NCBI GenBank assembly: GCA_958295645.1
Contig: OY282361.1
Coordinates: 1,640,501-1,704,500 of the forward strand
Direction of reading: 5' to 3'
Length of the DNA stretch: 64,000 nt
Source of the DNA: Longimicrobiales bacterium
GTDB taxonomy: Bacteria > Gemmatimonadota > Gemmatimonadetes > Longimicrobiales > Gaopeijiaceae
Every line of letters starts with the position of its first letter. The stretch's first letter is position 1. The notes under the pieces were generated by a model that was given only the letters and a program-made list of their open reading frames with translations, did no database searches and was not told the DNA's origin. The position numbers were made by a program, and so were the translations under genes. Of this stretch, positions 40,922 to 52,202 are shown piece after piece.

Positions 40922-41058
40922 ACTGGGTCGGGCTGCGGGAGGCTGTCTTGGATAGAAACGTCACCGCAAACTAGCAAGCTCGCCAAGGCGAATCAGATCG
41001 TCTGGGCCGCACGGCAAGCGTCGATGCCCGCTCGGCGTTCTTGCTCGTCGTCTGGCGG

Positions 41059-41403
41059 TCAGTCCTGGGCCACCTCCGCGATCAGCTCGTCACGCGTCTC
41101 GCACTCGATCAGCGACCGCCCGATCCGCAACACGCGTTCCTCGTCGTCGATGTCCCCCAACAACTCGGCCAACCGAGCCGCTGTCGCCTCGCCGAACTTC
41201 CATCGCGCCACCTCGACCTGAGCCTCCGCGAGACCTTGCTTGCGACCCCGCTCCATCCCTTGTTTGCGACCCCGCTCCGCCTCGTCCAGCAGACAATAGC
41301 GCTAGCCGGTCGCGTACTCCGACAATCCTTCGGGCACTGCCTTACGGACGAGAGACCATGGTCTCCTGAGGCGACTCTCCGCCGACGCGCCTTTGGCGTC
41401 CAT
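41059..41403 (-). pseudogene. broken gene with in-frame TAG at the island edge, family uncertain
   Basis: Reading minus from ATG 41403 gives MDAKGASAESRLRRPWSLV and then VRKAVPEGLSEYATG, a TAG stop (41302-41304), and then in the same frame RYCLLDEAERGRKQG. It continues with a second ERGRKQG and ARWKFGEATAARLAELLGD up to 41059. The repeated RGRKQG and helical C-terminus resemble the tail of Rpn/transposase-31-like or DUF4351-type hypothetical proteins; I am not sure which. No usual catalytic PD-(D/E)XK part is visible. Nothing else was found in 40922-41520. It lies just past the helicase gene that ends the defence island. Confidence 0.5.
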
Positions 41404-41520
41404 GACCCTTTCGAAGTGAAGTCTTGGTTGCCCTTGGTAGGAGGCGCGCAAACGGCACGCTCACCGATGGGGATCATCATATACCTATCCACCCACCACA
41501 TCGAGATAGATCCAGCGTGC

Positions 41521-43140
41521 CTAATTCGCCCGAAACAGTTCAGAATACTGACGGAGCCTCGACACTACTTCGTCAAAAAGTCCTTCCTTGCCTGCCAGCA
41601 TCTCCGCCAACCGATCCTCAACCGTGTTGGTCGCTTCTAAAACATATACCGTGACCGCCCTACGTTGTCCAATGCGATGGACGCGATCTATCGCCTGCTT
41701 GTTAGCCGACGGATTCCACCACCGATTGATCAGAAGTACATGATTAGCATCTACCAGTGACAACCCTTCGCCGGCCGCACGCATCGACGCCAATAAGACA
41801 CCACGTTTGACTGAATAGAAGTCATCAAGCAACGTCTGTCGTTGTTTCGCATTCAAGCTACCTTCATATATTCCACAGACAGGTACGTCTACATCCGCTA
41901 AACGCAGTCCAAGTAACCTGAGCGGTTCCAATAAATACGAAAACACTACTGCTTTACAGTTCGGACGGCTACAAACATCTTCAATAATCTCTACCGCACG
42001 ATCTATTTTGGCACTGTCTCTTGTTATGCGATCGTAATCGCAAATTTCACGAAGACGGCTAAAGACCGAAAGCGTGTTGTTCGTCGTTCCCATCTCCGCC
42101 GCAGTTCGTGCATAAGCGGCACGTTGCCGCGGCAATAACTCAACTCGCTCCATCCTGTATTCGATCGGCGGCAAGTCAGATAACACATCACCTTTTTCTC
42201 GCCGCAGGACGTAGGGTCGTATCTTGGCACGCAACATCCACGGTGCGAGATCGCGGTCACGCGAACTAAACACTGATGGCATCAATAAACTCATCAACCC
42301 GATGACATCCAACTCATCCTTCTCAAGCGGTGTTCCTGTCAGTGCCCATACCCAATCTGCTTCAATTCGTCCGACGCCAGCCGCCACCTGCGATTGCCAG
42401 TTCTTCACTCTATGAGCTTCATCCAGAATTAACAATTCAGGAGGCTTCTGCACGATCGCATCAAACGGTTTACGATTCTGTTCATAGTTAGTGATCATCA
42501 CGTGGGCTTTCCCCCAAAGGCTTTCGAAAGCATCGCGAGCCGACGACGCTCCGGCTATTCGAACACACACTTCCGGCGCCCACCGCCCGAACTCAATCGC
42601 CCAGTTTCGCAAGAGAGAGGTTGGAGCCATAACCAAAAGCCGTCGAATCCTTCCTTGCTCAAGCAGTCGCTTTGCAGCAACTATCACTTGGATGGTCTTC
42701 CCCAACCCCATGTCGTCAGCGAGGAGCAATCTCTGTGCCTTCAATAATCTACGAACACCTGCTTTCTGATACACGTACAACGGCAAGCGTCTTCGTTCCG
42801 CCGTCAAAAGCGGCATGAGCATCCTACCCAATGCTGGTACGCGCTCCTGACTCGACCACGCGTTGGGTATGGGCGGCAGTGACATCGTTACCTGCCGGCC
42901 CTGGCTCAAACGGTCGCCAATCCATCCATCAGCCATGGCACTCCACTCAATTGCCTTGGCCAGCCTCCTCGCAACGAAATCCCGATGCGGTTCCGACGCC
43001 GACGCCACGGCTGTTAAACGTGCGGCATTATCCAACCGTGCGCAATCAACCCAATACCGGCCAGACCTCGACATTCCGCAATTGTCGACTTCTACAACGC
43101 GCCGTGCGTGAAAGTAAACGCGAGATGTCAGAGCTTCCAC
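41521..43140 (-). CDS. SNF2-family DNA helicase/translocase of the defence island
   Basis: A 539-aa superfamily 2 ATPase. Walker A is in LLLADDMGLGKTIQVIVAAK, motif II LLILDEAHRVKNW, motif III ALTGTPLEK and motif VI RWWNPSANKQAIDRVHRIGQ. It would move along or remodel DNA using ATP. The first 100 residues hold no nuclease I recognise. It is the last gene of the island and markedly AT-rich (line 42001-42060 is 42% G+C). A GTG start at 43140 follows a GGAAGGGAAAGAA stretch; an 84-base gap separates it from the DGQHR gene. Confidence 0.9.
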   Translation of the reverse strand: MEALTSRVYFHARRVVEVDNCGMSRSGRYWVDCARLDNAARLTAVASASEPHRDFVARRLAKAIEWSAMADGWIGDRLSQGRQVTMSLPPIPNAWSSQERVPALGRMLMPLLTAERRRLPLYVYQKAGVRRLLKAQRLLLADDMGLGKTIQVIVAAKRLLEQGRIRRLLVMAPTSLLRNWAIEFGRWAPEVCVRIAGASSARDAFESLWGKAHVMITNYEQNRKPFDAIVQKPPELLILDEAHRVKNWQSQVAAGVGRIEADWVWALTGTPLEKDELDVIGLMSLLMPSVFSSRDRDLAPWMLRAKIRPYVLRREKGDVLSDLPPIEYRMERVELLPRQRAAYARTAAEMGTTNNTLSVFSRLREICDYDRITRDSAKIDRAVEIIEDVCSRPNCKAVVFSYLLEPLRLLGLRLADVDVPVCGIYEGSLNAKQRQTLLDDFYSVKRGVLLASMRAAGEGLSLVDANHVLLINRWWNPSANKQAIDRVHRIGQRRAVTVYVLEATNTVEDRLAEMLAGKEGLFDEVVSRLRQYSELFRAN

Positions 43141-43224
43141 TTCTTTCCCTTCCGAAATCCCATGCCAATGGATTGGCCGCCAACCGCAGATCGCATTTAT
43201 GCCAGCTTAACGGATAGAAATGGA

Positions 43225-44607
43225 CTACCCTAAGGACCGGCTAGATTCAATATCAGTCCACATTCCATTTTTTTTATCATCCGACACATTGTGTAACAAA
43301 TAGAATTCCCATTCCTCTCGAAGAGTCTTTATGTCATCATTGTCTAGAGATACTATGCCAAGTTGCCACATCAAGATTCGCTCCACAACAACCACAGCTT
43401 TCGGCCGTTCCTCGTTTCTCATCTTCCAAGAGTCACTTCCGTCCGGAATCAACAACAGGTTCCGCCACGGTGGGCGACGCAATGACCAGTCAATACCCGC
43501 CAATGGCTTCAAGTCGTGCTCAGATACCGAAGTGCTGTCGCCAAGTAGTTGCCGGGCTAGTTTCGCGACCAGCTCTTGCGTAACGGGCCAAAAGAGGGCC
43601 GAATCGTCACATTTATCGCCCTGCGTCCTATGGGGACAACCTTTTTCGCTTTCGCGAGAGTGGCATCGCATACTCGCCGGATTGTTGCGCAACGCAGGTA
43701 GGACAAGGATTAGATTATTCCAAATGTTACTCAATTCTTCAAAAAGTTGATCTAGCTCGTCATCATCTAACCGAAAAGCCGTAAACGTCTTGTCCTTCCA
43801 ACCTGCATTTAGTCGTTTCGCCGAGTTCAGAAGATGTTTATTCATGGCATACAACGTCTCCAGGCTCGTGAAGACACTGCTTTGCTTGGTGACGTTCTTG
43901 CCCTTTCTCATTTTGATTCTGGGCGATTGTCTATAAGGTGCCTCTTTGGCCATGAAGAATTCATGTTCGGTGATCAGGCGTCGTGTGAGGATTGCGAAGG
44001 TGTCGTCTTCGTCCATCACGATGTTTGTGAAATGAGAAGTGGGTTTAGCGTATCGATTGAGATTGCCAAATAGACGGCGGTACCGCTTGAAGAAATCACT
44101 TGGATGATCCGCCTCCGTAGGCATCACAACAATGACAGAAATCTCTTCGTTAGCAAATCCGGCCGGGGTATTGCGCCATTCATCGCCGGCTTTGGGATCG
44201 AGAAGTGTCCTGATCGCCGAAAGACGGTGTTGGCCATCCAGTGCATAATATTTTTGCGTTCCGTCAAATTTGAGTACGCCAAAGGCAGAAGCGAGACGAG
44301 GGTCATCTCTGAAAATTTCGAATTTGGGATCATCTGCTATGGAAATGGGATACCAAACGGGGTTTCCTTCAAGCGCAGCGACAACGAGTGAAGAAAAGAA
44401 GCGATCTTGTTGTCTTTGCAGATATGCGACGATTTCCTGCTTTACTCGCGATTCATTGATGATCCGCTGGATGGCGTCATCCAAAGTGTGATCCTGGTGG
44501 ATGTCATGAGCGAACTTGACCTGCTCTTGAACCTCTCTCATTGTGAGCTTGACTATGAAGTAGGTCCACCGGCCCATCGTGGCCCGAATTGCGGGGTAAA
44601 GATTCAT
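43225..44607 (-). CDS. dndB: DGQHR-domain (DndB-like) protein
   Basis: A 460-aa protein with the signature YALDGQHRLSAIRTLL at residues 121-136. The DGQHR domain is shared by DndB, the regulator of DNA phosphorothioation, and by the DpdB component of 7-deazaguanine systems. The N-terminus (TYFIVKLTMREVQEQVKFAHD) and FGNLNRYAKPTSHFTNIVMDEDD are also DndB-like. It is longer than typical DndB (about 360-380 aa) and carries an extra Cys/His stretch (RCHSRESEKGCPH...KCDD) that might bind metal. ATG 44607 overlaps the GIY-YIG stop (ATGA). Very AT-rich (line 43321-43380 is 38% G+C). The symbol marks the family, not proven function. Confidence 0.82.
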   Translation of the reverse strand: MNLYPAIRATMGRWTYFIVKLTMREVQEQVKFAHDIHQDHTLDDAIQRIINESRVKQEIVAYLQRQQDRFFSSLVVAALEGNPVWYPISIADDPKFEIFRDDPRLASAFGVLKFDGTQKYYALDGQHRLSAIRTLLDPKAGDEWRNTPAGFANEEISVIVVMPTEADHPSDFFKRYRRLFGNLNRYAKPTSHFTNIVMDEDDTFAILTRRLITEHEFFMAKEAPYRQSPRIKMRKGKNVTKQSSVFTSLETLYAMNKHLLNSAKRLNAGWKDKTFTAFRLDDDELDQLFEELSNIWNNLILVLPALRNNPASMRCHSRESEKGCPHRTQGDKCDDSALFWPVTQELVAKLARQLLGDSTSVSEHDLKPLAGIDWSLRRPPWRNLLLIPDGSDSWKMRNEERPKAVVVVERILMWQLGIVSLDNDDIKTLREEWEFYLLHNVSDDKKNGMWTDIESSRSLG

Positions 44608-45107
44608 GTCGTGTCTTTCTCCTGGGGGATGACGTCTTCGGTTAACGCGACGCCTTCTTGAATAATGGCTGCTATCTGGTAACCCGCGGTCACACCGAGC
44701 GCTAGCCTGTCGCTTGCGACGGGACCGAAGGCATCTTGCAACTTCTGTTCCACCACTCGCCGCTTCAGGGTGTCGTCTGGCATAATGAAGAAATGGAACT
44801 TGAGATTCTTGAAAAACCGAATACGGCGCACGTTCGTAGTATTGCCAAGATGATCGCCGAAGCGCGCGCGCAGGTTCTGTGTCTGGCCAACATAAAGCGG
44901 ACACCATGACGACGAGAACTTGCCTTGGATCGGAGGCGAGCCGCTGATCACGTACACGCCAGGTGTCTCCGGTGGCTGTTGTCGCCACTGTTCGAGAAAT
45001 GGTACAGTTTGCCAGGGTGCGACATCGAGTACGCTGACAGCAAGGACTTCCCAATGCTCGACATCTAAGCTCCAGCCGCGCGGCAAGGATTTCCCTAGAG
45101 ATGGCAT
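44604..45107 (-). CDS. GIY-YIG nuclease-domain protein
   Basis: A 167-aa protein with a single GIY-YIG endonuclease domain. Visible are PGVYVISGSPP and LYVGQTQNLRARFGDH (the two Tyr strands and the Arg helix) and the catalytic Glu in RRVVEQKLQDAF. It has an N-terminal extension of about 50 residues (VEHWEVLAVSVLDVAPW). Its ATG overlaps the end of the PAPS-reductase-like gene by 13 bases and its stop overlaps the DGQHR start, so it is embedded in the operon. It is the only obvious nuclease in the island and so the best candidate for DNA cutting. The AT-rich composition begins here (line 44761-44820 is 43% G+C). Confidence 0.87.
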   Translation of the reverse strand: MPSLGKSLPRGWSLDVEHWEVLAVSVLDVAPWQTVPFLEQWRQQPPETPGVYVISGSPPIQGKFSSSWCPLYVGQTQNLRARFGDHLGNTTNVRRIRFFKNLKFHFFIMPDDTLKRRVVEQKLQDAFGPVASDRLALGVTAGYQIAAIIQEGVALTEDVIPQEKDTT

Positions 45108-45895
45108 ATCGCGCAACCCTCCGCAAGCTCCGGCGCGGGGATGGCTTCTCGCCGAGGCTGGGCCGCGATCTCTTCCAAGGTGCGACCGTCCACCCACGTG
45201 AAGCCGGTCGTCTCGTACTGCTTGGCACGTTCGAACCATTCGGGGTGCCGCTCTTTGAGGCCCTGCCACTCGCCGATCTGCTGATAGAAGCAGAAGTAGC
45301 AGCCCGAGCGGGAACGCCACTCGTAGTAGCTCGGCAGGCCGAGGCCGGACTCCTCGAGGATCATCCGGATGTCGTGGAGTCCCAAGGAATGGTCCTTGAA
45401 CGGGTAGACGGGAACGATGTTGGGTTGCTCGGAGATCACAGGAGGCTTCTGGGACTGGTAGCCTTCTCTGGTCTCGTCGCCTCGGATGCCGATGTAGCTG
45501 AAGGCTTGGTCGTCGCCGACGTGGCGCTCGAAGGGCTTGATCTTGAGGACGCGCGTGCACCAGCGGGCGCGGGGGCTCGGGAGGAAGCCGCCGTAGACTT
45601 CGTTGAGCCAGATGTCGAACGGGTTTCGGCCCGGCTTCTTGGCGACGCCGATGAGGTCGAGGGCGTTCAGGTGGACGATGTCCTGCCCCAGGACGGCTTC
45701 GAGACGGGCTAGGTACTGGTACGTCTCGGGGAGCTCGCAACCGGTGTCGCAGAAGACGTATTCGACCTCCAGATCCGGGTACTGGTCCTGCAGGTAGAGG
45801 GCGAGGGCCGCCGAGTCCTTGCCGCCAGAGACGTTCACGATGTGCCTGTGCCCGTTCCCATTGCCGATCGCGACTGCCTCGGCGACGGTCGTCAC
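45095..45895 (-). CDS. sspD: PAPS-reductase-like ATP pyrophosphatase (SspD/DndC-like)
   Basis: A 266-aa adenine-nucleotide alpha-hydrolase that in phosphorothioation systems activates the DNA backbone or carries sulfur. The PP-loop is VNVSGGKDSAALALYLQ (residues 20-36), followed by YVFCDTGCELPETYQYL. Further cysteines at ARWCTRVLKIKP, SGCYFCFYQQ and the terminal GCAICHL could hold an Fe-S cluster as in DndC. It is shorter than classic DndC, which suits the Ssp type. GTG 45895 overlaps the ATPase stop (GTGA). The symbol is by inference from the neighbours: cysteine desulfurase, DUF4007 and P-loop ATPase. Confidence 0.83.
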   Translation of the reverse strand: MTTVAEAVAIGNGNGHRHIVNVSGGKDSAALALYLQDQYPDLEVEYVFCDTGCELPETYQYLARLEAVLGQDIVHLNALDLIGVAKKPGRNPFDIWLNEVYGGFLPSPRARWCTRVLKIKPFERHVGDDQAFSYIGIRGDETREGYQSQKPPVISEQPNIVPVYPFKDHSLGLHDIRMILEESGLGLPSYYEWRSRSGCYFCFYQQIGEWQGLKERHPEWFERAKQYETTGFTWVDGRTLEEIAAQPRREAIPAPELAEGCAICHL

Positions 45896-48800
45896 TGCAT
45901 TGTCTCGGCGACGGTCGGCGGCCGCTCCCGCAGAACCGCCGCCAATGCTTCCAAACGACGAGCCGCTTCGTCGCTGCCTAGCACCTCCGCCAATTGTTCG
46001 GCCGCCTGCCGCGTCCGGGCATTGGCCAAGCCGGCGAGGCCGCTTCTGATCGCCGGATCGAGGCCGGATTCCTGGACCAAGGCGACTGCCGTGGCTTCGA
46101 TGACCTCGAAGGCGTTTCGCAGCTGGCGGCGGAAGGTCGAGACCATGGTGTCGTCCCATTGCTGGACAGGGAGGCCAACGAGCAATGTGGAGAGGGCGTT
46201 CACCAACGCGTCATCGTCCTTGTAGCGAGACGCCAAGCGGCTCAGCACGCCTTTTGTGACTTGGTCCGGCAGGCGACGAACGAAGGGCTTGGAAAAAAAC
46301 GAGGCCCATGCGACAGCTTGGCCCCGCACGCCATCGACCGCGCCGTTGGCAAGCGCGCTCCCACCGCCGTCCGCCGTCCGGTCGTCGCCGGTGTCGCTCG
46401 ACAATACTCCATTGCCGCTCGCCACCCCGTTGGTCCCCAGAGCATCTCCGTTCCCGGCGACGCCCCTGCCGACCCCGTTGGCCATGCCCCGCGCCGCCAG
46501 GGCGTCGCTCAAGGCTTGGACTGCCTCCTGCCGGAAGATGTTCCCGACCCCCTCCAACTCCGCCTTGAGATTCGCGACCCGACCCAACAATTGCCGAGGC
46601 TTGGCCACGGTTGCCCCCACCCATCGAGGCAATCGATCCAGGAACAGCCCAACGGGATCCGGCGAGTCCATCTCCATCACGAACGAACGAGCCTCCCGTG
46701 ACACGTACCGCGAGTTGACAACGCCTGCAGGCAACGTCTGCCGCCAAGCCAGGACAGCTCCCATGCAGGCTCGGAGGAGGTCCTTCTCGGTCGCAATCGC
46801 GTCGTCGCTTCCCCCAAACAGATCGCGAATCCCCTCCAAGTACGTCCTCTCCTGGGCGCTGACGCCCACTACGTCCAAGAGATACCGGTCGGGGTACTTC
46901 GCCATGTCCTCGACGACGGAGGGCAAAAGGTCGTCCACGAACCGGTCCCGGCAACGAACCGTCGCGGCGGTCGGGAATGCTCGGAAGCCCGCAGCCAGCA
47001 ACAAGGGCAAGAGTCCCTCGCGTACCCCGAAGGGTGGCTCCGTCAGTTCGTCAAGCAAAGATTGAAAGCTCTTGGCCTTGCCGGGTTCCACGAAGAAGTG
47101 GCGGATGCGGGCCCAGACGGCTTTGAGGCCCGGGCGGTCCAGGTCCTCGGGAGACGCCAGAACCCAAGTCCTGCCATTTTGGCAGGTCTTGTCGTCTTCA
47201 GAGATCGAAATACTGCCATTTTGGCAGTACAGTCCCGTCCGCAGGAAGACGCACCTGAAGATCGCCTTGTCTGCGAAGTTGCCCTCGATGCCGAGGTCTT
47301 CCTGGCCGTAGCGTTCCAACAGACCGAGTTCGACCTTCTTGCGGGCGTTCACGATCACGGGAGACGGCGACCGCCGAACCACCATTTCCGAGTCGATCTC
47401 GGGCGCGCACGGGAACACTTCTCCCATGGCGCGCGAGAGCACGCGGCGAAGCTCCGGAACATCGGTCGCCTCGACCGGACGGCTCTTGTAGAACCAGCGG
47501 CTTCCGTTGGGCTGAGGACGCAACACGCGGTCCACGAGAGGCTGGAGCCCAGTACGAGCGTCGTCGGTCAGGTGAGCCAGTTCGGCCCCGACCATGGGAT
47601 CGCTGCCGATCATGTCCTGATCGGCGTGCATCCGCAACAGACACCACAGATCGACGGCGGCCTCGCGGAGCGCTGCCGTCTCGCGGGCAACTGCGACAAA
47701 CAGTCGAGGGTCGTCGATGCTGGCCGCCAAGCCCTCCGCCTGGCCAAGCTCTTCTGCGTCCCGGGGCAACACGTGAAGCACACGACCATCCGTGCCGGGC
47801 TTCCAACCCTCCAGCCGCATCCGGTCCCGGAACGCCTCCAATCCGGCGACCGTCGCATACTCGGCTTCCAAGTAACGCCTGATCCCGCACCGGGCGTTGT
47901 ACTCCACGGGCCGCCAAACCGGTGGAGGGAGCTCGCACGTCAGAAACGAGGCCAGATCGAAGTCGCCGGCGTGGCGCATCTTCTCGTCTTCCAGGCGCCC
48001 GCGCAGGTCCACGTCCGTGCCGTGCCAGACCACCACTTGGTCCGAGTGACGGCGGTGCACGAGAAGGCGCCGTTTCACGAGCCCGCTGATCGCACGGCCA
48101 ACCCGAGCCTTCCGGTCTTCGCCGACGACCCCCAACGCGAAAGCGAGCTGCTTGCGGGTCGCATGGCTGCGCTCGCCGCTCAGGCCCAAGCCCAGGAGGA
48201 ACGCGCTCTTGAGAGACTCCGCCTCAAGCGATCCATCCGGCACCTTGCCCAACGCGCTCTCGGTCTCCAGCCAAGGGCGCTGGGTCCCGCCGGCGCCTCC
48301 GTCCGTGCGAAAGTCGCCTCGGAAGTAGTCGTACAAGGCGCCCGGCGAGACCGGCGCGTCCAATGGCGTCCATTGCAGGAACGAGAACAGCGTTCGCTCG
48401 TTCTGGGCGACCCGGGCGGCCACGCGAGGCAACAAGTAGACGGTGGCCGGAGCAAGGGGATGGGCCGCCGCCAGAATGCCGGGCAAGCGGTCTTCCGCGA
48501 TGTCCGGGAACATTCCAACGTCCCTCGCCTTGGTCGCCAAGCCGACAAAGTCCGCTTCGGGCGCTTCGACGGCGCGGCTCTCGGCAACGAGGGAGCCCAC
48601 CAGTTCGTACAACTCGGTGGAGTCGTCCAAGTATTGGAGGGTCTCGAACCGGCCTTCGATCTTGGCCCACTCCCGTCGCAACCCCGGCGGCAAACCGGCG
48701 GCATACCCTAGAAGGGATCGGTGAAGAAGCAACACGAGCGACACGGGAACGATCGAACTGCGGCTGGCCACTTCGGCCAGGACCTGCAAGACGTCCAGTT

Positions 48801-49380
48801 CCTCCGGCCTGCCCTCCGAGACCAACCCTTGGAGGTGGCGTCCAAATTCGTCCCACACGATCACCAAGCGGTCGCGTCCGCTCTGCTTCAGCTTGTCGAG
48901 GCAGGCATCCACAAGCGCGGGGATGTCGTCCGCCCGCGCGGCGCCCAACCCGGCGACGGTTCGCGCCTCCCTGCCCAGCGCCGCTCGGCGCATTGCGTCC
49001 AGCAGACCCTGCTTCAGCGCGGCCGGGCCGGAACCCACATGCCCGTAGAGCGGCACGAACAGTCCCTGTCTTCGCGCCGTCCGCCTCCGCATCGCCCGTC
49101 TTTGCAGGCCCGCGCCGATTCCCGCCAAGCGGCCCTCGACAAGGCGCAACATCTCCGCGGCCTCCGGGTGATTATCTACCAAGTGACCCAGATACCCCGC
49201 CGTGATGGACTTGCCGGAGCCATACGGCGCAACGACGAAGACCGCGTTTCCGTTCTTGCCCTGAAGCAACGACGAGACCAGTCGAACGGATTTCGAGGTC
49301 GGTCGAAAGTGCTCGAACCGCTCCGGATGCTCCGCGTCGAGCTGGATGTTGATGGAGCGGAGGAAGGCGCTCTGGACCAT
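45892..49380 (-). CDS. sspC: large P-loop ATPase of the phosphorothioation operon (SspC-like)
   Basis: An 1162-aa protein. Walker A is AVFVVAPYGSGKSITAGYLG (about 45-65) and Walker B LVIVWDEFGRHLQGL (about 170), an AAA/ORC-like arrangement. The middle has winged-helix-like segments (LAFALGVVGEDRKARVGRAI). A low-complexity Gly/Asn/Val insert (GMANGVGRGVAGNGDALGTN and on, near 1000) splits the C-terminal part. SspC in SspABCD is an ATPase; position and partners suggest this is its counterpart, but sequence homology could not be tested. ATG 49380 begins 2 bases after the DUF4007 stop. GC-rich, unlike the distal genes. Confidence 0.75.
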   Translation of the reverse strand: MVQSAFLRSINIQLDAEHPERFEHFRPTSKSVRLVSSLLQGKNGNAVFVVAPYGSGKSITAGYLGHLVDNHPEAAEMLRLVEGRLAGIGAGLQRRAMRRRTARRQGLFVPLYGHVGSGPAALKQGLLDAMRRAALGREARTVAGLGAARADDIPALVDACLDKLKQSGRDRLVIVWDEFGRHLQGLVSEGRPEELDVLQVLAEVASRSSIVPVSLVLLLHRSLLGYAAGLPPGLRREWAKIEGRFETLQYLDDSTELYELVGSLVAESRAVEAPEADFVGLATKARDVGMFPDIAEDRLPGILAAAHPLAPATVYLLPRVAARVAQNERTLFSFLQWTPLDAPVSPGALYDYFRGDFRTDGGAGGTQRPWLETESALGKVPDGSLEAESLKSAFLLGLGLSGERSHATRKQLAFALGVVGEDRKARVGRAISGLVKRRLLVHRRHSDQVVVWHGTDVDLRGRLEDEKMRHAGDFDLASFLTCELPPPVWRPVEYNARCGIRRYLEAEYATVAGLEAFRDRMRLEGWKPGTDGRVLHVLPRDAEELGQAEGLAASIDDPRLFVAVARETAALREAAVDLWCLLRMHADQDMIGSDPMVGAELAHLTDDARTGLQPLVDRVLRPQPNGSRWFYKSRPVEATDVPELRRVLSRAMGEVFPCAPEIDSEMVVRRSPSPVIVNARKKVELGLLERYGQEDLGIEGNFADKAIFRCVFLRTGLYCQNGSISISEDDKTCQNGRTWVLASPEDLDRPGLKAVWARIRHFFVEPGKAKSFQSLLDELTEPPFGVREGLLPLLLAAGFRAFPTAATVRCRDRFVDDLLPSVVEDMAKYPDRYLLDVVGVSAQERTYLEGIRDLFGGSDDAIATEKDLLRACMGAVLAWRQTLPAGVVNSRYVSREARSFVMEMDSPDPVGLFLDRLPRWVGATVAKPRQLLGRVANLKAELEGVGNIFRQEAVQALSDALAARGMANGVGRGVAGNGDALGTNGVASGNGVLSSDTGDDRTADGGGSALANGAVDGVRGQAVAWASFFSKPFVRRLPDQVTKGVLSRLASRYKDDDALVNALSTLLVGLPVQQWDDTMVSTFRRQLRNAFEVIEATAVALVQESGLDPAIRSGLAGLANARTRQAAEQLAEVLGSDEAARRLEALAAVLRERPPTVAETMQ
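47170..47229 (-). repeat. two close perfect hairpins inside the ATPase gene
   Basis: cctgccattttggcagg (47170-47186; 7-bp stem, TTT loop) and tactgccattttggcagta (47211-47229; 8-bp stem, TTT loop) share the core tgccattttggca. They lie 24 bases apart within the ATPase coding region, where both encode a CQNG motif. In such GC-rich surroundings the AT-centred palindromes stand out. Confidence 0.85.
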
Positions 49381-49382
49381 GG

Positions 49383-50351
49383 CTAGGCGGCCTCTTCCCC
49401 AGCTTGGTCCGTCGAGTCGTAATAGCGCTTGATCCACTCGGGCGCAGGCACGCTCTTGCGGATGCGGACGATCCTCTCTCCGGCTTGGCCGTCCAGTCTG
49501 ACGAGTCCGCCGGCCTCGTAGCTCGCCACCAGCTCGTAGAGCGCCTCGGCGGTCAATGCGAAGACCCGGCCGGGGGCGCCGATTTCATGAGCAAGCTCGG
49601 TGAGGGATCTGTCGCGGGCCGCCGACGGCCGATCAGTCCGCCGCCCGCCGACCCGTCGTCCGCCGGCTTGGCGGCCACTAGCTTCCCGGCCCAGGAAGCG
49701 TTTCCGGGCAACAGCGAGGGCATATCCGAAGAGTTCGAACGGAATGGGCTTAAGGCCCCGATCGACGTGGTAGAAGCCCGTCTGGCGGGAATGGAGCAAG
49801 ATACCGAGTTCGCTCAACGGACATTCCATCACGTCTTCCGGATCCCCCTCCGGGCGCGGCACGCTGACCGAATAGGAACGGAGGAGGCAAGCCACATCTC
49901 GATCGAGGGTCCGAGGACTCGGCGTCCTGCCGCCCGCGGAAGCCAAGTGACGGCGCAAGGCCTCGACGCAAACCGGACGCTCGAACCGGGCCGAGCTGAA
50001 TACGTTGAAGAACCAGTTCCATGTGAACGCGAACGCAGGCCGGTTGACCAACTGAACGTGAACGGCCCACCACGTGCCCGGAAGCAGGAAGTAGCGGTCG
50101 CGCTCCCAGACCATCTTCCCGAAGTCCGTCGGGCGAAGCGCCTTGGTGCGGCGGCCGCCGCTCAGCTCTTTCTCGGCCAACCCGGTGGCCAAGAGCCAAT
50201 GATGGATCGACTTGGCCATGTTCCGTCCCACGCCTAGCCAGTCCGCCACGTCCGGAGCGTCCATGCGTTGCGGGTCTTCCACGACGAGACGAAGCCCCTT
50301 GTAGAGCCATCCGCCGCGGATCGCGAAAGTCTGGTGTCCCCCGAAGCGCAC
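49383..50351 (-). CDS. sspB: DUF4007 family protein (SspB-like)
   Basis: A 322-aa protein beginning MRFGGHQTFAIRGGWLYKGL, a DUF4007 hallmark, with winged-helix-like parts (WLGVGRNMAKSIHHWLLATGL) and a C-terminal LVRLDGQAGERIVRIRK. From memory, DUF4007 proteins sit beside PAPS-reductase-like genes and include the SspB nickase of single-strand phosphorothioation; I could not verify this. An Arg/Gly-rich linker (about 215-245) looks lineage-specific. GTG 50351 has an ideal AAGGAGG site 6 bases upstream, overlapping the desulfurase stop region, which implies strong coupled translation. Confidence 0.8.
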   Translation of the reverse strand: MRFGGHQTFAIRGGWLYKGLRLVVEDPQRMDAPDVADWLGVGRNMAKSIHHWLLATGLAEKELSGGRRTKALRPTDFGKMVWERDRYFLLPGTWWAVHVQLVNRPAFAFTWNWFFNVFSSARFERPVCVEALRRHLASAGGRTPSPRTLDRDVACLLRSYSVSVPRPEGDPEDVMECPLSELGILLHSRQTGFYHVDRGLKPIPFELFGYALAVARKRFLGREASGRQAGGRRVGGRRTDRPSAARDRSLTELAHEIGAPGRVFALTAEALYELVASYEAGGLVRLDGQAGERIVRIRKSVPAPEWIKRYYDSTDQAGEEAA

Positions 50352-50360
50352 GAGTCCTCC

Positions 50361-51515
50361 TTAGGCGACGGCGAAGCGAAGCAGGTTCGCATGCACGGCG
50401 GAAACGGCTTCGACGGCGCCGGCCACGTCGGCCACGCTGTTGAGTTCGGAGAACGCAAACCGCACGCTGGCGTACGCTTCGTGCTCGGAGAGGCCCATTG
50501 CCCGAAGGACGTAGGAGGGCTCGGGCCGCTGGTTGGTGCAGGCGGAACTTTGGGAGCACCGGACGCCCGTTTGGTCCAGGCGGACGACGAGCGCCTCGCC
50601 GTCGAGGTCCAAGAAGCGGACGTTGGACGTGTTGGGCAGGCGGTCGGCACCCGATCCGTTCACCGCTCTCGCAAGCCCTCGCCTCGCAAGGCCCGCCTCG
50701 AAGGCGTCCCGCATCTCGCGGGTGGCCCCCGCGACGGTCTCGAAACGGTTCTCTCTGAGCGCCAACGCAACGCCGAGACCGACGATCGCCGGGACATTCT
50801 CGGTGCCAGGGCGCAGCGCCGTCTCTTGCTCTCCCCCGAACATCAACGGCCGAAGCAGGCTTCGGTCCCGCGCCACCAGGGCCCCCGCGCCGAGAGGGCC
50901 GTGCAACTTGTGGCCGGACAACGACAGGAAGTCGACGGGCGAGGCGTCCAAGTCCACCGGAATCTTGCCGACCGCTTGGACCGCGTCCGTGTGGAAAAGG
51001 CCCCCGAGACTTCGGACTCGCCCGGCCAACCCGAAAATGGGCTGGACGACTCCCGTCTCGTTGTTCGCCCACTGGACGGAGACCAGCGTCCGGCCCGGCG
51101 CGACCGCTTCGGCCACTTCCTCTTCCCGGACGAGCCCGTTCGAGTCCACGGGCAGGACCACCACCTCGCGACCCAGTCGTTCGAGTTCTTCGGCAGCGGC
51201 AAGAACCGACGAATGCTCCACGGCAGTCGTGACGAGCCGGTAACCGTTCATCGGCCCGCCGAGGAGGCTCTGCAACACCAAGTTGTTGGCCTCGGTGGCG
51301 CCTCCAGTGAAGACCACGGCGGCAGGATCAGTCGACAGGAGGGCCGCCACCTGCTCCCTGGCCCGCCACAACTGTTCCCTGGCCCGCGCGCCCGCCGCAT
51401 GAACGCTCGACGGGTTGCCGCAACCGTCGTGCATGGCCCCGGCGACGGCTTCCGCAACCTCCGGCAGAACGCGAGTGGTGGCGTTGTTGTCCAGGTAGAT
51501 CTCCGGGCGGCTCAC
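50361..51515 (-). CDS. sspA: cysteine desulfurase (SspA/DndA-like)
   Basis: A 384-aa PLP enzyme that takes sulfur from cysteine. The N-terminus is EIYLDNNATTRVLPEV. A PLP-contact His lies in TAVEHSSVLAA, the PLP Lys in LSLSGHKLHGPLG, and the sulfur-accepting Cys in VRCSQSSACTNQRPEPSYVL. Here it feeds sulfur to the modification genes rather than to Fe-S assembly, judged from the operon. GTG 51515 overlaps the HTH gene stop (GTGA). It is a full-length NifS/IscS-type protein. Confidence 0.92.
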   Translation of the reverse strand: MSRPEIYLDNNATTRVLPEVAEAVAGAMHDGCGNPSSVHAAGARAREQLWRAREQVAALLSTDPAAVVFTGGATEANNLVLQSLLGGPMNGYRLVTTAVEHSSVLAAAEELERLGREVVVLPVDSNGLVREEEVAEAVAPGRTLVSVQWANNETGVVQPIFGLAGRVRSLGGLFHTDAVQAVGKIPVDLDASPVDFLSLSGHKLHGPLGAGALVARDRSLLRPLMFGGEQETALRPGTENVPAIVGLGVALALRENRFETVAGATREMRDAFEAGLARRGLARAVNGSGADRLPNTSNVRFLDLDGEALVVRLDQTGVRCSQSSACTNQRPEPSYVLRAMGLSEHEAYASVRFAFSELNSVADVAGAVEAVSAVHANLLRFAVA

Positions 51516-51775
51516 GGCGAACCATCCCCGTTCTTCCGGAGAGGAAGGGCGATTTGGGCGGGGTCGGTCTCTGGCAGGCTGGGATCGATCCGGTTCGCAT
51601 GGGCCAGAATCGCCGCGTAGTCCGACTCGGTGAAGAGCAACAATCTGCCCCGAAGGCGGTGCCCTTGAGGGACGCGTCCCTCCTTCCGCCACCGATAGAG
51701 AGTCTGCCGAGCGATTCCGGTCGCCTTCAGCACCTCCGAGGCGGTGTGGTAGTTGACGCCGTCGATGCGTCTCAT
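51512..51775 (-). CDS. small helix-turn-helix regulator (excisionase/MerR-type HTH)
   Basis: An 87-aa protein with a DNA-binding helix-turn-helix (YHTASEVLKATGIARQTLYR, WRKEGRVPQGHRL) followed by LLLFTESDYAAILAH, the usual HTH_17 pattern. It is the first gene of the phosphorothioation operon and overlaps the desulfurase start, so it probably autoregulates the operon. The tail (about 60-87) is Pro-rich. A canonical promoter lies 44-72 bases upstream. Confidence 0.85.
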   Translation of the reverse strand: MRRIDGVNYHTASEVLKATGIARQTLYRWRKEGRVPQGHRLRGRLLLFTESDYAAILAHANRIDPSLPETDPAQIALPLRKNGDGSP

Positions 51776-51818
51776 CGCGTCCCATTACGTCGCAGTGTGA
51801 CTCGTTACGCAACATCTT

Positions 51819-51847
51819 ATCTTGAGCGTCCGCAAGGGGCATGTCAA
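51819..51847 (-). promoter_or_regulatory. predicted promoter of the phosphorothioation operon
   Basis: On the minus strand a perfect TTGACA (51842-51847) stands 17 bases before CAAGAT (51819-51824). The HTH start codon follows 43 bases downstream. Between them gttgcgtaac (51803-51812) is an imperfect palindrome that could bind the HTH protein. The -35 box is a full match; the -10 box matches 3 of 6, including the key A and T. Confidence 0.55.
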
Positions 51848-52202
51848 GCGAACCCAGCAAGCTGTCCGGTGAACTCGCCATAAATCCTTGGCAGATTTCG
51901 ACTTGTGAGACTGGCGGATTGCGACGGTGGCGCCGCCGTGCATCGTTCCATGCCGCCGCGCGACCGAGGACCACGGGAGAATAATGGGCTGCCCGCTAGG
52001 CCGCGAACATGGTTCGATGGGACCAGTCTTGCGGACGGATCCTGCGGAATTCGTCCCAGTCCCATCCTCCCCAAAGAAAACGGGCGGGACGCACCCAAAC
52101 CGCCCCCACGGATGCGCCCCGCCCTCCCCTCACCAACCTCTCCCACCCGGCCCCGCCGCGCCCCACCGCGCGGCCAAAGACCGTCCTTCCCCTGCTTCCC
52201 CC
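51848..52202. other. intergenic region upstream of the island, no gene seen
   Basis: This 355-base stretch separates the island promoter from the stop of the three-repeat envelope protein. The open frames here lack homology and have skewed Arg/Pro-rich composition. I see no tRNA end, direct-repeat attachment site or insertion-sequence end. It marks the upstream boundary of the defence island. Confidence 0.5.

Follow-up and report, generated by a model that had tools for sequence, protein, structure and literature searches.

Genes of the locus

The DNA considered here is a stretch of 64,000 nucleotides (the window) from the genome of a Longimicrobiales bacterium of the phylum Gemmatimonadota, which is available as a single 2.89-Mb contig and is 95.7% complete. 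Between positions 41521 and 51775, the window carries eight minus-strand genes that encode, in order, a small helix-turn-helix (HTH) protein, the proteins SspA, SspB, SspC and SspD of a DNA phosphorothioation (PT) system, a predicted GIY-YIG nuclease, a protein of the DGQHR family, and an SNF2-family ATPase (Table 1). All eight open reading frames (ORFs) were found in the place and order given by an initial annotation of this DNA. Its description of the genes as mostly overlapping applies to four of the seven junctions: HTH/SspA, SspC/SspD, and GIY/DGQHR overlap by 4 bp each, and SspD/GIY by 13 bp. The other three are gaps of 9 bp (SspA-SspB), 2 bp (SspB-SspC), and 84 bp (DGQHR-SNF2). Because reading frames overlap, including those of SspD with GIY and of GIY with DGQHR, the distal cassette (GIY, DGQHR, and SNF2) is coupled to the PT writer (SspABCD).

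Table 1. Features of the locus, with positions in the window
Feature	Position	Strand	Basis or remark
HTH_17/MerR-like small protein, 87 aa	51512-51775	-	Pfam HTH_17 2.5e-6; probable operon regulator
SspA, cysteine desulfurase, sulfur donor	50361-51515	-	PADLOC SspA 1.3e-118
SspB, DUF4007	49383-50351	-	PADLOC SspB 2.2e-98; Pfam DUF4007 1.7e-54
SspC, large ATPase, Walker A APYGSGKS	45892-49380	-	PADLOC SspC 7.1e-134
SspD, PAPS-reductase-like PP-loop sulfurtransferase, SGGKDS	45095-45895	-	PADLOC SspD 1.6e-90
GIY-YIG nuclease (predicted), 167 aa, proposed cutting subunit	44604-45107	-	Motif residues and AlphaFold model
DGQHR-family protein, 460 aa, proposed switch or PT sensor	43225-44607	-	TIGR03187 3.6e-31; Pfam DndB 9e-34
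SNF2-family ATPase, 539 aa, proposed translocase	41521-43140	-	Pfam SNF2-rel_dom 1.1e-39, Helicase_C 5.6e-14
Genomic island, limits approximate	40922-52202		Spacing of flanking genes in relatives

The phosphorothioation writer

The writer is of the Ssp type, as initially annotated: its four genes match the PADLOC models of SspA, SspB, SspC, and SspD and not the Dnd set. More generally, searches with the models of PADLOC, Pfam, and NCBIfam gave family matches far beyond chance, with the exception of the GIY-YIG protein, whose match by sequence is weak. By homology, SspABCD almost certainly puts sulfur marks on host DNA. As a cysteine desulfurase, SspA is generic (in PADLOC, the DndA model scores 8e-117, against 1.3e-118 for SspA), so that its assignment rests on its position beside sspB; both the catalytic-cysteine region (CSQSSACT) and the pyridoxal phosphate-lysine region (SGHK) are present in its sequence. 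A Dnd system was considered and rejected, as the ATPase matches SspC and not DndD and the genes do not make up the DndC, DndD, and DndE set. An identification of SspD as DndC was likewise rejected (DndC match of 2e-4, against 1.6e-90 for SspD; PADLOC). The HTH protein, whose homologue occupies the same position before sspA in two of the loci described below (L043 and L072), is a probable regulator of the operon.

The three distal proteins

At the sequence level, the GIY-YIG match of the first distal protein is weak (Pfam, 3e-4, just below the gathering score), and no PADLOC model matches it. Its AlphaFold model (predicted local distance difference test, pLDDT, of 81, with a core over 90) matches the GIY-YIG domain of UvrC (Z 9.9), T4 EndoII (9.1), and R.Eco29kI (7.6), and also the anti-phage nuclease PD-T4-3 (6.8). 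The GxY and YxG motifs, R82, and E120 are invariant across 53-56 members of the family, and the corresponding residues in the window protein are G50, Y52, Y72, G74, R82, and E120. Judged by its modelled fold and these residues, the protein is a member of the GIY-YIG nuclease superfamily.

The second distal protein had been annotated as carrying the DGQHR domain of DndB. It is indeed related to DndB (Pfam DndB, 9e-34), but it is not DndB itself: against the equivalog model of DndB, TIGR03233, it scores 59 bits, with a cut-off of 328, and true DndB coexists with relatives of the window protein in Dnd loci L025, L091, L106, L110, and L112. In its predicted model (pLDDT 91), residues 8-189 match ParB with CDP (Z 7.7), sulfiredoxin with ADP (6.0), SspE (6jiv, 5.1), and BrxU (5.0); in SspE, it is the N-terminal domain that the fold resembles. 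The ParB, sulfiredoxin, and SspE matches come from a second structural aligner; Foldseek gave weak matches to pNOB8 ParB, and a sequence search of the PDB with the DGQHR profile found nothing. DndI (9JFL) is not among the structural matches listed for the model, and is not thereby excluded.

Both Q47-R48 and DGQHR124-128 are invariant in 61 DGQHR members. In SspE, Q31-R32 is a PT-sensing patch and D96GQQR100 belongs to a pocket (PMC9646914), and in both SspE and DndI a ParB-like DGQQR domain hydrolyses nucleoside triphosphates (NTPs) on PT-DNA and controls an HNH nickase (PMC9646914, PMC11662687). Q47-R48 and D124-GQHR-128 recall the two SspE elements, by motif order and not by superposition. 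The model has a ParB/sulfiredoxin NTPase fold with a nucleotide pocket, and the protein may hydrolyse NTPs.

In several loci, a larger DGQHR-like protein of ~600 aa or more adjoins the cassette (L062:7307-9955, L068:7463-9996, L069:5461-9922, L071:7691-9520, L072:7643-9457, and L084:4019-7007), and in some of them a second GIY-like ORF, which is highly divergent, comes before it. The 600-aa ORFs of L062, L069, and L071 were considered as SspE and rejected, as they have no PADLOC match and are DndB/DGQHR-like instead.

The SNF2 ATPase has intact helicase motifs. Its matches raised Dpd, DISARM, and Zorya as candidates, which were rejected because the PADLOC matches are confined to the generic helicase core. 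Among the eight locus proteins, no PADLOC match was obtained for DpdA, DpdB, or DpdC, and DpdE matches only the SNF2 core.

Recurrence of the cassette beside phosphorothioation writers

The distribution of the cassette was surveyed across 84,980 species, each represented by one genome, with an alignment of DGQHR proteins and on the basis of sequence only, and the best 80 loci were kept. PT-writer genes are present in 71 of them: 10 have Dnd genes and 61 have Ssp genes, in one case just SspD. Of the nine writer-less loci, L118 alone is fully flanked; the other eight lie on pieces 3.4-13.3 kb long. In 59 of the 80 loci, DGQHR is immediately preceded by the GIY gene, and the two most often overlap by 4 bp. 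The loci come from phyla that include Gemmatimonadota, Poribacteria, Acidobacteriota, Actinomycetota, Chloroflexota, Pseudomonadota, Planctomycetota, Verrucomicrobiota, Cyanobacteriota, and Nitrososphaerota. The gene order noticed in the window is therefore not one of chance neighbours, and GIY/DGQHR/SNF2 is a recurrent PT-linked cassette.

The linkage is also seen within single phyla. Across 395 genomes of the phylum of the window, 14 have SspD and 5 have DGQHR; the 5 all belong to the 14 and have both genes at the same locus (hypergeometric chance of this overlap ~7e-7, with the window genome left out and kinship ignored). Similarly, the 242 cyanobacterial genomes hold seven DGQHR genes, five of which adjoin SspD and one DndC, while the seventh is a truncated orphan. 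The cassette is missing from most Ssp-bearing genomes (9 of 14 in the phylum and 34 of 39 in Cyanobacteria). In L043 of the Gemmatimonadota, the nearest relative, all eight genes recur in the same order, with 83.6% identity in SspD as opposed to 36% in GIY, 52% in DGQHR, and 47% in SNF2. The distal genes are thus faster-diverging or have been exchanged.

When 77 DGQHR proteins were placed in a maximum-likelihood tree, 36 formed a clade (clade I, support 100/100) that contains the window protein together with all members linked to SNF2. The SNF2 gene is directly downstream of DGQHR in 20 members of this clade and on the opposite strand in two. The other 41 proteins (clade II) have no SNF2. SNF2 seems to have been acquired early in clade I, with a loss in Poribacteria. 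Distances within this clade correlate between DGQHR and GIY (r 0.85) and between DGQHR and SNF2 (0.72); correlations with SspD are lower (0.55-0.69, with 0.55 for SspD-GIY).

A search of plasmids with SspD found SspABCD-GIY-DGQHR on a Roseobacter plasmid only; the closest full-length SspD relatives are paired with DndFGH-type genes and not with the GIY/DGQHR cassette. Alphaproteobacterial plasmids L018-L022 have SspABCD with a long-tailed SspD like that of the window, followed by DndFGH-like genes, and three of the five also carry a 'phosphorothioation-associated putative methyltransferase'. On a Ti-type plasmid of Rhizobium sp. K1/93 (L024:8480-18720), GIY-DGQHR is directly followed by DndFGH-type genes, and no PT writer is found among the annotated genes of this 18.7-kb stretch. 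Among viral contigs, a scan turned up three GIY-DGQHR loci that resemble clade II, none of them with a confirmed writer adjacent. The pair is encoded by IMG/VR contigs (L123:7438-9119 and L124:7372-9119) and thus occurs on sequences classed as viral.

The nuclease position and the search for known effectors

Some loci have no GIY gene, and in these the position before DGQHR may hold another nuclease. Full-length SspE precedes DGQHR in L046 and L051 (6e-255 and 6e-259), a DUF262-HNH protein does so in L053 and L078, and an HNH nuclease in L090 and L118. In L047, both DUF262-HNH and GIY are present. As this position holds different nucleases, SspE included, the GIY protein is proposed to do the cutting, and this exchange is the strongest evidence for its role. 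In six loci of Calothrix and Dulcicalothrix (L096, L097, L099, L101, L102, and L104), DGQHR stands next to DndCDE, GIY is missing, and a long DndB-like protein is encoded separately.

The absence of SspE and DndFGH from the window, as initially reported, can now be extended for SspE to the whole genome, where the best match of a full-length SspE query reaches 15 bits. No SspE that could be paired with the writer was thus found anywhere on the contig. There are no FGH genes at the locus, and a single DndG-like query, which was not the SspFGH of FF-93, had no match genome-wide. Two DUF262 proteins encoded elsewhere in the genome were considered as SspE and rejected, since they belong to other families: that at 1462066 is PDC-M55C, and that at G000:C1:1507498 (L040:3927-6716) has 929 aa and a C-terminal Schlafen/AlbA_2 domain.

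Proposed function and alternative explanations

Comparative genomics, above all the exchange of GIY for SspE or HNH proteins, supports the earlier suggestion of a PT system with a different restriction partner. In terms of its sequence, the locus appears to be a PT defence system of the Ssp type whose effector cassette is a different one that had not been named before. Probably, if not securely, the distal genes form a PT-dependent restriction module, composed of a nuclease, a ParB-fold switch, and a translocase, that replaces SspE. In such a system, SspABCD would mark host DNA with sulfur, and the distal genes would restrict in the stead of SspE. The DGQHR protein, as a ParB/sulfiredoxin-fold NTPase, would read or respond to the PT mark or to the state of the DNA and would gate the GIY-YIG nickase or endonuclease. 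The SNF2 ATPase would travel along or remodel DNA, delivering it to the nuclease, and cutting would presumably block phages. In effect, the whole would be a split SspE, in which the ParB-fold switch and the nuclease are separate proteins, the chemistry is that of GIY-YIG and not HNH, and a motor has been added. PT might either license cutting, as for SspE, or prevent it, as for DndI and SspFGH.

Several observations weigh against this proposal. No recognised nuclease lies beside DGQHR in L044, L045, L083, and the six Calothrix and Dulcicalothrix loci. In the Poribacteria loci L046 and L051, DGQHR persists beside SspE, which has a sensor domain of its own; the DGQHR protein may therefore not gate the nuclease, and it might have a wider role, such as limiting PT writing. 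Its fold resembles that of SspE to a modest degree (Z 5.1 over 127 residues). Since SNF2 is absent from clade II, it is not essential to the core mechanism. Finally, the GIY protein of the window has Ser132 in place of the Asn of PPxN, which is kept in at least 90% of its relatives. Nevertheless, this is no bar to GIY-YIG membership, as the fold and the other catalytic residues are present.

In one alternative, the DGQHR protein would be a DndB-like limiter or repressor of the writer, the GIY-YIG protein a backup suicide nuclease set off by a block of the main system, and SNF2 an accessory, with the true restriction enzyme elsewhere or missing. DndB, an ATP-dependent negative regulator, is of the same superfamily as DGQHR, the main text of PMC10853773 proposes a backup-effector role for URI (GIY-YIG) nucleases that stand alone at Dnd borders, and the retention of DGQHR alongside SspE in L046 and L051 would fit as well. 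This alternative is nevertheless unlikely, given that true DndB already coexists with DGQHR in five Dnd loci, that GIY and DGQHR are translationally coupled and co-diverging and do not lie at a border, that GIY is exchanged for SspE or HNH within one position, and that queries with SspE and the DndG-like protein found no other Ssp effector in the genome.

The cassette could also aid the writing or maintenance of PT, with GIY nicking and SNF2 opening the DNA for PT insertion or tolerance, or it could serve PT removal or damage repair in the manner of UvrC. The UvrC incision domain is indeed the closest fold match of GIY, and all genes share one operon with the writer. However, most Ssp loci, and the characterised SspABCD writers, do without the cassette, which also attaches to Dnd writers of different chemistry and can be replaced by SspE, so that such a role is improbable. 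It is still harder to believe that three independent defence genes merely share a defence island: defence genes do cluster, DndFGH-like and PLD/GHKL/helicase PT effectors also occur in these loci, and the GC content at third codon positions (GC3) is lower in the distal genes (0.53-0.62) than in sspABCD (0.78-0.87), but order and coupling are kept in dozens of loci from many phyla and with PT writers specifically, divergence is correlated, and SNF2 is limited to one DGQHR clade.

Beyond the replacement of SspE by a restriction module at this locus, a more general role can be put forward tentatively. The DGQHR family might be a general adaptor of PT defence, a ParB-fold switch serving both Ssp (single-strand) and Dnd (double-strand) writers, with interchangeable GIY-YIG, HNH, or SspE-like nucleases adjoining it and SNF2 in one clade. 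If this is true, PT restriction would have a further class, common and as yet without a name.

Genomic island and other neighbouring modules

The locus lies between a gene for a POT transporter and a bPH_6 gene, which are convergent. These are 11,288 bp apart in the window genome and only 26, 48, and 126 bp apart in relatives G058, G160, and G059, where the site is empty; thus, the locus is an insertion of ~11.3 kb. GC content is 0.48-0.69 inside the island and about 0.70 outside. No Rfam match and no convincing promoter, terminator, or repeat signal was found in the island. Just within its edge, positions 41059-41289 hold a GC-rich 76-aa tail ORF with no Pfam match, within which there is a near-perfect 21-nt tandem repeat (41234/41258). 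This ORF resembles the end of a broken gene and is perhaps the remnant of a mobile element.

A second module recurs beside SspABCD in several phyla and consists of a DEAD/ResIII helicase, a GHKL (HATPase_c_3) ATPase, and a PLD nuclease (L023:10226-14650, L027:10998-15414, L031:3917-8344, L037:4965-9442, L039:2923-8671, and L045:11328-15774). In PADLOC, the only matches are weak ones, of the helicase to PbeA and of the GHKL protein to MzaB. This module is possibly another set of Ssp effectors.

Relation to known systems

For most Ssp writers, no cutting partner is known, and the nuclease-DGQHR cassette is a candidate to fill part of this gap. In a published survey of 2,678 sspBCD modules, 196 had sspFGH, 199 had sspE, and 36 had both (PMC8092258), while of 5,530 Ssp sets in Acinetobacter baumannii, 5,518 have no sspE next to them (PMC12421847). 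As the putative switch is separate from the nuclease, simple mutants could allow the logic by which PT gates restriction to be dissected. In the open-access literature searched, no paper was found that joins DGQHR and GIY-YIG in Ssp loci.

Among described systems, the 7-deazaguanine system Dpd resembles the cassette in having a ParB-like DpdB and an SNF2-like DpdE. However, the window locus has no match to DpdA or DpdC, and the Ssp modification sits on the backbone. The URI/GIY-YIG nucleases of Rakesh, Aravind & Krishnan 2024 are of the GIY-YIG superfamily and lie near PT genes, but in the main text of that study they are standalone at Dnd borders, with no DGQHR pair, Ssp, or SNF2 (PMC10853773). 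DndB (PF14072/TIGR03233) shares the superfamily and the DGQHR motif with the window protein, which falls well short of the DndB cut-off, as noted above.

Other parallels are found among the PT restriction systems. SspABCD-SspFGH of Vibrio anguillarum FF-93 and DndFGH also join a PT writer to a multi-gene restriction module with an ATPase motor. In contrast, the window locus has no FtsK/HerA-type translocase, its genome has no DndG-like match, and the protein families are others. In IscS-DndBCDE-DndI, a ParB-fold NTPase gates a nickase, as proposed here, and Dnd writers too can have the GIY-DGQHR pair next to them; DndI combines DUF262 and HNH in a single protein, whereas the window system would have two proteins and GIY-YIG. 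SspABCD-SspE, known from Vibrio cyclitrophicus FF75, E. coli 3234/A, and Streptomyces, likewise has a complete SspABCD, a ParB/DUF262-like fold with DGQ(Q/H)R, and a nuclease, and SspE itself fills the GIY position in L046 and L051. The window differs in having GIY-YIG and not HNH, a separate ParB-fold gene, and an added SNF2, with no SspE found in the genome. The GIY/DGQHR/SNF2 set may give DNA-sulfur systems a third kind of cutting arm.

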